38,326 nt of DNA from Candidatus Uhrbacteria bacterium. GTDB taxonomy: Bacteria; Patescibacteriota; Patescibacteriia; 2-12-FULL-60-25. Positions 17,711 to 20,766 of the stretch are shown one piece after another (position 1 is the stretch's first letter; each line of letters starts with the position of its first letter). The translations under genes were made by a program, and so were the position numbers. The stretch lies in the NCBI GenBank assembly GCA_903918235.1, contig CAIXDN010000081.1, forward strand, positions 1 to 38,326. The letters run 5' to 3'. A model generated the notes under the pieces. The model worked only from the letters and a program-made list of their open reading frames with translations, did not search any database and was not told the origin of the DNA.

Positions 17711-17744
17711 AAAAAATACCCCAACGCATGTCGGGGTATTTTTT
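17711..17744. terminator. Symmetric intrinsic terminator after peroxiredoxin
   Basis: AAAAAATACCCC-AACGCATGTC-GGGGTATTTTTT. Confidence 0.88.
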
Positions 17745-17885
17745 ATGGTAGCCCCGAAGAAACTCGTGTCGAACTATCTGCGCCTCGGGGTCGATTTTCT
17801 CCCCATCATCAAAACCTGTAGCGAGGAGATTTTCGCCTTCCTCTCACGTGAGCCAACCCGCCCCCAGCTTGCCGTTACGTATTGA
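17745..17885 (+). other. 46-codon open frame at left element end, possible displaced recombinase C-terminal tail
   Basis: ATGGTAGCCCCGAAG... = MVAPKKLVSNYLRLGVDFLPIIKTCSEEIFAFLSREPTRPQLAVTY*; same phase as MVAP in the recombinase ORF at 20691. Confidence 0.4.
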
Positions 17886-17905
17886 GGGACGTGCTATAGA
17901 CCCAT

Positions 17906-18097
17906 ATGAACCTCTCACAAAAAGACAATCTCACTGACATCGCCCAGAGCTTGCCTACAGCACCTCCGCCATCGAGCAATACGAAGCCCGGAACGGTGGT
18001 CGCAAGTAATGGAACGCGCGTAACCTTGGGAGCGCAAGGCGTGACAAAGCCCGCTTCATCCCTTCCTCAGAGAGGCACGAACCCTCGTACGAAGTAA
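17906..18097 (+). CDS. Small hypothetical protein (63 aa)
   Basis: ORF preceded by extended -10 (TGCTATAGA, 17892-17900). Confidence 0.4.
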   Translation: MNLSQKDNLTDIAQSLPTAPPPSSNTKPGTVVASNGTRVTLGAQGVTKPASSLPQRGTNPRTK

Positions 18098-18127
18098 GGT
18101 GGAGGGGGTTTCCCCTTTCTTGTTTGT

Positions 18128-18493
18128 ATGACCGAGCTTGCCGTCAAAGAACAGTTTGTTGAGCTTCGTGGTAGCGGCTTGAGTTTTGCGTCGATTGCCG
18201 AAAAGCTGAACATTTCAAAAACAACCCTGATTCAGTGGAGCAAGATTTATCAAGCCGACATCTGTAACCTCAAACAGGTTCACGCCGAGGCTCTACGTGA
18301 GCGTTTTCGTCTGACCTCAGAACGTCGTGCCTCCATCTTTGCCAAGCAACTCGACACGATTGAGAGAGAGCTTGCCAAGCGGGACTACGCGACCCTCTCG
18401 ACTGAGAAGCTCTTTGACATGTCCTTGAGGCTCCACAGCGAGCTTGGAGCGACGGAGGCACCGGCTCAACCAACGTGCAAGGTCAAAGCGTAA
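18128..18493 (+). CDS. Helix-turn-helix protein (transposase/terminase small subunit-like HTH)
   Basis: 'VKEQFVELRGSGLSFASIAEKLNISKTTLIQWSKIY'. Confidence 0.7.
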   Translation: MTELAVKEQFVELRGSGLSFASIAEKLNISKTTLIQWSKIYQADICNLKQVHAEALRERFRLTSERRASIFAKQLDTIERELAKRDYATLSTEKLFDMSLRLHSELGATEAPAQPTCKVKA

Positions 18494-18588
18494 CATCTTA
18501 TGAAAAGCAAGAGCGCACCCGGACGGCGAGAGCGCGAGCATCGTCTGTGAGGACGGTGCGCTCAATGCCGCGCGGATGCGCAGAAGGG

Positions 18589-18942
18589 TCAGGAGGGGGT
18601 CTGGGGGCTCCCGATGAGGACGACGATCGCGCCAAAGACGGCCGCGATCCCGCAAAACATCCCAACCAGGGGGACGTTCACTGGCTCGCCGTTGATGGCG
18701 TTCATCTGGATGCAGATGAGGGCCATCGTCGTGCCGATCCCCACGGCGACCGCGGGCGGGATGATCTTGGCCTTGAATGGCCAGCTGGACCTGACGATCC
18801 CTGCCCCTATCAGGGCTCCGATCGTCATAATGAGCCATCCCCACCACAGGGGTTGCTCGTCTACGCCTGCGCAGTACGCGCCAGCAAGCGCCGCGCCAGC
18901 AAGCGCCGCGAGAAACGAAATCGAGAACTTGATCTTATTCAT
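18589..18942 (-). CDS. Small membrane protein (117 aa, ~4 TM)
   Basis: AGGAGG SD before ATG; MNKIKFSISFLAALAGAALAGAYCAG...; hydrophobic segments. Confidence 0.65.
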   Translation of the reverse strand: MNKIKFSISFLAALAGAALAGAYCAGVDEQPLWWGWLIMTIGALIGAGIVRSSWPFKAKIIPPAVAVGIGTTMALICIQMNAINGEPVNVPLVGMFCGIAAVFGAIVVLIGSPQTPS

Positions 18943-18963
18943 GGAACCTCCTGTTCAGCTGAT

Positions 18964-18982
18964 GTGACATTCCCTGTCACAT
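18964..18982. promoter_or_regulatory. Perfect inverted repeat (candidate operator) in divergent intergenic region
   Basis: TGTGACA-TTCCC-TGTCACA. Confidence 0.5.
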
Positions 18983-19077
18983 GGGGTCAGTTTTGACAAT
19001 CCAATGTATCACAAAAAGACGGTTCTGTCAACCGTCTTGGTGGCTAAAAGCCTTGATTTAGCGCAAAATGTCTCTAT

Positions 19078-20732
19078 ATGGACACCTCAAACAACGCCTT
19101 CATGGCCGCAAGCCTCGTTGGGCGCCTCCAAGAGAGCTTTGGAATTGGCGGAGATAACCGAGCGGCTGAGCTTGACTTCACCCGTCTCCGCTACGTCATA
19201 TACGCACGCAAGAGCACGGACAGTAGGAGAAGCAGGAGCGGAGTATCCCCGACCAGCTCCACGCTTGTAGAGAGCTTGCAGACCGTTTGGGCGTGAAGGT
19301 GGTTGACCGAATCCACGAGGAACAATCAGCCAAACTCTCGGACAAGCGACCGAAGTTCCGGGAAATGTTGGACGGCATCATCATCTGGTCTCCCGACCGT
19401 CTCGCCCGCAACATGAAAGAGGCGGGAGAAATCATCGACCTCCTCGACCGTGGCATTATCAAAGACCTCAAGTTCTCAAACAACTTTGTGTTTACCAACG
19501 AGCCATCAGGCAAGATGCTCCTCGGGATTAGCTTCGTCATAGCCAAGCAATACAGCGACCAGCACGGCCAGAACGTGAACCGTGCTATTCGTCGCAAGAC
19601 TTCCGAGGGGAAGTACGCGGGGAGTCACACGAAGCACGGTTACTACAAAGACAAAAACCACTTTCTCCAACCTGACGGCGACAACTTTGCCCTTATCTCC
19701 GAGGTCTTTACCATGCGCCTACGCAAAGCCTCTCTCAAAGAGATTGCCACGTGGCTTCGTGAGAAGGGCTACCCACTCAAAACACCGCACACGACACCCA
19801 AGAAGCTCAAAATCAGCGTAAAGTTTATTTCTAACCTTCTTCGTGACCCCGTGTATGCGGGAGCGATGGTCTTTGGAAAGCAGGTCATCAATCTATTCCA
19901 ATTCGAGAACTACGACTTCGTTCCTGCGGTCTCCGTAGAAGACTTCGATAAGTTGTGTAAGCAAGACGGCATCACCAAGGGCTTCACGCTCACCAACCTC
20001 GTCAAAAAACAGGACATCCAAGCTAACCTCATGCGCGAGATGATAACGTGCGCGGGCTGTAACAAATACCTCCATCCGAACATCACCAAAAAGCCAAAAA
20101 CGAGCTATCTCAACTATCGTTGTACAACTCCGACCTGCGTGCGCTTCAACAAGTCCGTGCGTACCAAGGTTATTTTGGCCGCCGTCTACGACTTCCTGAA
20201 CAAACATCCGTTTGCCAACAAGAAAGCGTATGACCGCTACGTCCCCGAGATGGAGCGCATCATCAAAGAACGGAACAAAGAGACCGAAAGTCTCCTGCGC
20301 TCGCTCAACGTCCAGCTACGAAACCTTGCGGAACACATCACGGGCACAAAAAGAGAGATACAGGAGGAGGAAGATACGACGCTCAAAAAGGAGTATAAGC
20401 GTGACCTCAAAGAACAGCTTGAAAAAGCCGCGAAATTGGAGACTCAAATCAAGAAGTTGAAGCAAGCGCGTGAACGAGCAAACGACGTAATCCTCACCTA
20501 CGAAAGTTTCATCGAGCTTTTCCAAAACTTGGCTCAACGTATACAAAATATCGAGAGTATGGCTCATCTGGACTTCATCATCAAAAAACTGTTCTCGAAC
20601 TTTGTGACGGATGGCAAAAAAGTGCTTCAAATAACACAAAACTCTCCTTTCGGAGAGCTCTGTGGGACACTGAATCCTTTGGATTCGGTGATGGTAGCTC
20701 CAAGGGGAGTCGAACCCCTGTTAACGGCTTGA
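19078..20732 (+). pseudogene. Serine recombinase (resolvase/large serine recombinase) with apparent 1-nt frameshift
   Basis: Frame 1 encodes 'RLRYVIYARKSTDS', frame 3 continues 'EKQERSIPDQLHACRELADRLGVKVVDRIHEEQSAK...IIWSPDRLARN...'; zinc-ribbon 'CAGCNKYLHPN...YRCTTPTC'; the junction near 19224 lacks one nt. Confidence 0.85.
20668..20690. repeat. Inverted repeat abutting right attachment core
   Basis: CACTGAATCC-TTT-GGATTCGGTG directly before ATGGTAGC. Confidence 0.7.
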
Positions 20733-20766
20733 AAAGCCGCTGTCCTAACCGTTAGACGATGGAGCC
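20692..20766 (-). tRNA. tRNA-Glu (UUC anticodon)
   Basis: Minus strand GGCTCCATCGTCTAACGGTTAGGACAGCGGCTTTTCAAGCCGTTAACAGGGGTTCGACTCCCCTTGGAGCTACCA; loop TTTTCAA, encoded CCA. Confidence 0.95.

Follow-up and report, generated by a model that had tools for sequence, protein, structure and literature searches.

Organization of the element and its insertion site

The window analyzed here is the whole stretch of 38,326 nt, in which an element of 2946 bp is inserted at the 3' end of a tRNA-Glu gene. The features of the locus are listed below with their coordinates in the window, their strand and, in brackets, the basis of each assignment.

17715-17744, no strand: host hairpin with a T-run, forming the left flank of the element (sequence)
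17745-17752, + strand: left attachment core ATGGTAGC (the one repeat of the right core within the window)
17745-17885, + strand: orphan recombinase 3' end, termed the tail below, 46 codons plus stop (homologous in-phase frames in relatives and pN/pS, the window tail being outside the test set)
17746-20691, + strand: complete element as integrated, 2946 bp from core to core (core repeat; 20 further elements compared)
17768-17775, + strand: GTCGAACT, putative zinc-domain motif of the attP arm, with GAAC at +26 from the core T (GAA(C/T) at +26 in 20/20 tabulated left arms)
17906-18097, + strand: 63-aa ORF (similar ORF after the tail in L165, compared by eye)
18128-18493, + strand: 121-aa helix-turn-helix protein (weak helix-turn-helix matches; homologous ORFs behind the tail in L008, L009 and L165)
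18589-18942, - strand: 117-aa putative membrane protein, cargo of unknown function (ORF)
19078-20732, + strand: large serine recombinase gene, disrupted, with its 3' end reading into the tRNA (Resolvase and Recombinase Pfam domains; alignment to intact relatives)
20642-20657, no strand: inverted repeat CTCTCCTTTCGGAGAG within the 3'-terminal coding part of the recombinase gene (similar repeats recur in relatives)
20691-20698, + strand: right attachment core ATGGTAGC (sequence)
20692-20766, - strand: tRNA-Glu (TTC), the attB host gene and, in the integrated state, source of the last recombinase codons (ARAGORN and Rfam)
20709-20716, + strand: GTCGAACC, tRNA T-loop motif at +21 and putative zinc-domain motif in attB (17/17 tabulated tRNAs)

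Only two copies of the core ATGGTAGC are present in the window, one at 17745 and one at 20691. From its sequence, and from the layout of a hairpin followed by TGG at the empty sites L110, L113 and L166-L169, the hairpin at 17715-17744 is inferred to be the terminator that adjoins tRNA-Glu in the empty site. Family searches with the 63-aa ORF (17906-18097) and the 117-aa ORF (18589-18942) returned no match. The 121-aa helix-turn-helix protein might be a regulator or a directionality factor, and a small helix-turn-helix gene follows shortly after the tail in each Glu-type element inspected (the window, L008, L009 and L165). Besides, many relatives, L026, L008 and L012 among them, carry an inverted repeat approximately 20-50 bp before the core and within the recombinase coding sequence, one class of these repeats reading AAATCCACCAT...ATGGTGGATTT; a repeat at this position could serve as a protein-binding site or as a terminator.

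Recombinase read-through and probable decay of the window copy

The recombinase ORF (19287-20732) reads through the 3' end of tRNA-Glu as VMVAPRGVEPLLTA, and its stop codon TGA (20730-20732) overlaps the anticodon of the tRNA. An earlier note, made from the sequence alone, had claimed this read-through with a stop taken from the anticodon region, as well as an 8-mer at 17745 and 20691 whose left copy opens a 46-codon frame in the same phase, and both claims held, the former on the strength of the sequence and the tRNA calls. The recombinase gene, however, is not intact: alignment to L008, L009 and L065 showed that 1 bp is missing near 19222 and about 24 bp near 19380, and the catalytic start YVIYARKSTD lies at 19078-19296 in a different frame from the recombinase ORF. 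The Recombinase domain is thus present in the window copy, whereas the catalytic domain is broken by both deletions. An assembly error as the source of these deletions is possible and cannot be excluded. Because the recombinase gene is disrupted, we consider the window copy to be probably an immobile, decayed relic.

Relatives and target genes

One scan of species genomes yielded 22 loci with related recombinases, all of them from Patescibacteria lineages or recorded only as bacteria, and whole-genome searches added more. The enzyme is a large serine recombinase (integrase), as shown by Pfam domains, a fold model and PDB matches: the Resolvase catalytic and Recombinase domains were identified in L008, L013 and L026, a zinc-ribbon model matched L008 and L013 only, and matches of the relatives to the CcrB/XisF models were weak and far below the cut-off. 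In most relatives, as in the window, the 3' end of the recombinase overlaps a tRNA gene, most commonly tRNA-Pro but also those for Glu, Val, Ser, Ala, Gln and others, so that their C-termini, e.g., GRGERTRTFDLTVPNRAR, are the antisense translation of the tRNA. The smallest elements of the family span 2.8 kb.

Several loci deviate from this layout. Relatives from Peregrinibacteria (L020:7313-7549 and L024:7467-7680) adjoin an apparent tRNA 3' end that is followed by a group I intron (RF00028), and their target therefore appears to be an intron-bearing tRNA. L009 has a normal left end, yet no tRNA is present at its right end (L009:7380-7503); this is unexplained, and the element may have inserted in tandem, undergone rearrangement or used a target other than a tRNA. 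In G629, one left flank leads into two different elements on two contigs (the second being L165, G629:C6), suggesting tandem copies or mixed strains. In addition, G373 and its congeners contain, at many places, a short repeated segment resembling a pilin-type N-terminus.

A conserved recombinase tail at the left end

The 46-codon frame at 17745, which begins directly after the hairpin with its T-run, is a real coding sequence, as shown by homologous in-phase frames and by selection tests in relatives. Such homologous frames, in the phase of the recombinase, occupy the left ends in relatives from across Patescibacteria and at several tRNAs; k-mers missed many of these loci, and the left ends were located by the frame together with the core. 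Those of L008 and L009 comprise exactly 46 codons, align to the window frame without gaps and end in VTY, and the same length and gapless alignment hold for L065, L066, L067 and L165, which likewise end in VTY except for L165 (VRY), while L068 gave a more divergent match. Elements of the Pro, Val and Ser types likewise gained a tail in phase when their left and right cores were joined in silico, and classes of 53-54 residues (L018, L021, L025, L026 and L029) and of 42-46 residues (L012, L014, L016 and L017) were observed. Profiles built from 3, 5 and 4 tails matched loci outside their building sets, with E-values from 5e-28 to 2e-5 for the Glu type. For loci such as L010, L015, L020, L071 and L083, the core plus the GAAC motif sufficed to locate the left end, where the frame is again open for 46-51 codons; the tail of L079 has only 23 codons. 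For several relatives no left end was found, some of these searches being limited by short flanks. In a maximum-likelihood tree, tail-bearing elements are present in both deep branches, suggesting that this layout probably arose early in the history of the family.

One might object that an 8-mer repeat with an incidental frame arose by chance, or that the frame stays open merely through conservation of the att arm at the DNA level, as the core has only 8 bp and the first dozen codons of the tail span the att arm and are also constrained as such. The selection tests were restricted to codons beyond this arm (codons 13-46 of five Glu-type tails, with the window tail left out). The pN/pS of the Glu-type tails was 0.47 in the predicted frame versus 1.43 and 1.41 in the other two, and that of five Pro-type tails was 0.42 versus 0.71 and 1.55. 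None of 500 column shuffles for either type gave a pN/pS as low as that observed, although this count is not an exact probability because pairs of tails share ancestry. Furthermore, the tails and the motif at +26 recur in every subfamily. The chance reading is refuted by these conservation tests and can be regarded as all but excluded.

Alternatively, the left frame could be an independent small gene with a start of its own, e.g., for a regulator, that is merely located at the end of the element. In favor of this, the window frame opens with ATG, and an ATG is found at codon 9 in L008, L009, L065 and L066, in L008 behind AGGAGG. However, 9 of the 23 tails contain no ATG, GTG or TTG within the first 22 codons, which disfavors a separate protein; in addition, the integrated frame sits directly behind a terminator-like hairpin, is always in the phase of the recombinase and is fused to a recombinase in a tandem pair. 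With many tails devoid of a nearby start codon, we rejected a stand-alone small protein as an explanation for the family and regard it as very unlikely.

Natural fusions and predicted structure

In L013/L081, two elements are arranged in tandem ahead of a single tRNA-Pro, and the recombinase of the first crosses the core without a stop into the left-end tail of the second, forming one ORF (L013:5755-7551). The recombinase of L066 also continues into the tail of another element, as far as the end of the contig. The natural L013 fusion was modeled from 18 sequences (mean pLDDT 77.6, pTM 0.35). The model contains the usual parts of a large serine recombinase, and its Foldseek matches were the SPbeta-type, phiC31, Bxb1 and Listeria integrases. 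The core falls within a linker (residues 543-552, pLDDT below 50) that leads from the zinc/coiled-coil domain to the tail, the latter being predicted with low confidence (pLDDT about 30-60) as two helices.

That joining the two cores gives a recombinase with a longer tail, as the earlier note had inferred, is supported by the relatives and by the tandem fusion, while the circle itself remains an inference. This reading would have been refuted if the left frame had lacked homologs or lain outside other copies of the element, or if unintegrated homologs of the recombinase ended before the tail. Neither is the case: homologs lie inside the other copies with the same end and the same phase, and the recombinases of L013/L081 and L066 run into the tail.

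Attachment sites, empty sites and the inferred circular form

For large serine recombinases, Rutherford and colleagues reported that the zinc-domain motif of attP is displaced by 5 bp relative to that of attB, away from the core (PMC3783163). The att sites of the present family satisfy this shift, as the GAAC of the tRNA T-loop is located at +21 from the T of TGG in 17/17 tRNAs, versus +26 for the GAA(C/T) motif in 20/20 tabulated left arms. GAAC is inferred to be part of the zinc-domain motif or contact.

Empty sites of the predicted form, in which the hairpin abuts the tRNA 3' end, were found in four congeners of two Pro-type hosts. This layout recurs with hairpin and tRNA-Glu in two relatives of the window, although the genes upstream differ. 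The exact empty site of the window, i.e., peroxiredoxin, terminator and tRNA-Glu in direct succession, was not found in same-genus genomes or in the window's own assembly; in the same-genus genomes G012 and G013, peroxiredoxin and tRNA-Glu occur in order, and these give no exact empty site because other genes lie between them. Likewise, a search of the window's own assembly for the circle junction, for which the earlier note had proposed to look in metagenomic reads, found none. Recombinase searches in plasmid, phage and viral-contig collections found no relatives, and hence no free circular form has been seen.

Proposed mechanism

Taken together, we consider it very likely that these are small Patescibacteria elements with the attP in the 3' end of their own recombinase gene and that integration exchanges the tail of the enzyme; the existence of the circle in cells and the effect of the tail on activity are inferred. 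The exchange itself is supported by sequence comparison, namely by the att architecture, conservation of the tail at the protein level, the in-frame tandem fusion and the empty sites of congeners. According to this model, the recombinase gene on the circle would cross the core into the conserved tail of 42-54 residues. Recombination with the tRNA 3' end would then sever the tail and leave its frame silent at the element's opposite end, and the integrated recombinase would end instead in residues from the antisense strand of the tRNA. An element beside another copy could also regain a tail for its recombinase.

As to the function of the exchange, we favor the inference that the tail fits the circle-form enzyme for integration between attP and attB, whereas the tail-less integrated enzyme may be inactive or may lean toward excision. 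Excision by serine integrases ordinarily depends on an additional protein, the directionality factor. The phiC31 integrase binds this factor less well when residues downstream of its coiled coil are substituted (PMC5814800). Because the tail follows the zinc domain and such post-coiled-coil residues of phiC31 affect this binding, a role of the tail in direction is plausible, although there are no activity data. A bolder reading, which is no more than possible, is a built-in directionality switch, with the circle enzyme integrating and the integrated enzyme biased to excision or dependent on a partner. The direction-switching tail proposed in the earlier note is shown by no evidence here.

A first alternative is that loss of the tail acts as a lock, i.e., that it inactivates the recombinase and fixes the insertion unless a complete copy acts in trans. 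This has an analogy in what has been proposed for the suicidal integrases of archaea (PMC8371274), and tandem arrays could provide the complete enzyme in trans. However, the loss is limited to 42-54 residues past the canonical domains, so that the catalytic, recombinase, zinc and coiled-coil parts stay joined, and elements unable to leave alone would need helpers. We are therefore inclined to doubt a lock, without dismissing it. A second alternative is that the tail governs protein stability, in which case integration would alter the level of the enzyme and not its direction. A precedent is the repressor of mycobacteriophage BPs, which loses a C-terminal degradation tag on integration (PMC4557955), and by our reading the tails often terminate in a short hydrophobic stretch (AVTY, FLL, AITL). 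Against this, tails of 42-54 residues are conserved along most of their length, which exceeds the need of a short tag, and this explanation appears unlikely to us. A tail adapted to the circle-form enzyme remains the preferred reading.

Loss of the tail on insertion suggests, by inference, a built-in on/off or direction switch, and if a directionality switch were true, recombination in an entire family of Patescibacterial elements would have its direction dictated by the state of the DNA itself. An enzyme that is rewritten by its own reaction can serve as a natural experiment on the C-terminal control of direction, and the family supplies integrase/tRNA pairs for organisms in which genetic tools are scarce. 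Caution is warranted with annotated C-termini of such recombinases, which represent tRNA read-through and not the full protein.

Comparison with known systems

In the literature searched, which was a limited library, we found no description of such an arrangement in Patescibacteria. The novelty suggested in the earlier note must nonetheless be tempered, as the two closest precedents, Mx8, where the exchange has been shown, and DsiB, where it has only been proposed, came earlier. In the Myxococcus phage Mx8, the attP core lies inside the coding sequence of the integrase, which acquires a new 3' end on integration (int to intX), and the altered enzyme is described in a review as active with changed specificity (PMC6070905). 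The Patescibacterial family is alike in the placement of the attP core within the integrase coding sequence and in the replacement of its 3' end on integration, for which the evidence here is comparative only. In contrast to the tyrosine integrase of Mx8, whose Int matches Pfam Phage_int_M above the cut-off and Phage_integrase below it, the Patescibacterial enzyme is a serine recombinase, and while Mx8 is a phage, the present elements are as small as 2.8 kb.

Archaeal suicidal (SSV-type) integrases likewise carry the attachment site in the integrase gene, which is split by integration (PMC8371274). Those are tyrosine recombinases in which the split parts the catalytic domain from the rest, whereas the Patescibacterial serine enzyme keeps its catalytic and DNA-binding parts and loses only the C-terminal tail. 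In mycobacteriophage BPs, the attP is also within a coding region and integration shortens the C-terminus (PMC4557955), but the truncated protein is a repressor and not a recombinase.

A serine recombinase is also found in the ssrA islands of Dehalococcoides, where the 3' end of the CcrB-like enzyme DsiB overlaps attL, as it does in the present family, and the authors of that work proposed that full function may be attained only on the circle or beside another island (PMC3146451). The target of DsiB is a tmRNA gene (ssrA) whereas the Patescibacterial targets are tRNA genes, and no conserved tail has been reported for DsiB, while the Patescibacterial family has one. What this family adds to the DsiB proposal is the conserved tail, the tandem fusion and the att-site evidence, by which an untested suggestion of 2011 gains comparative support from related recombinases.
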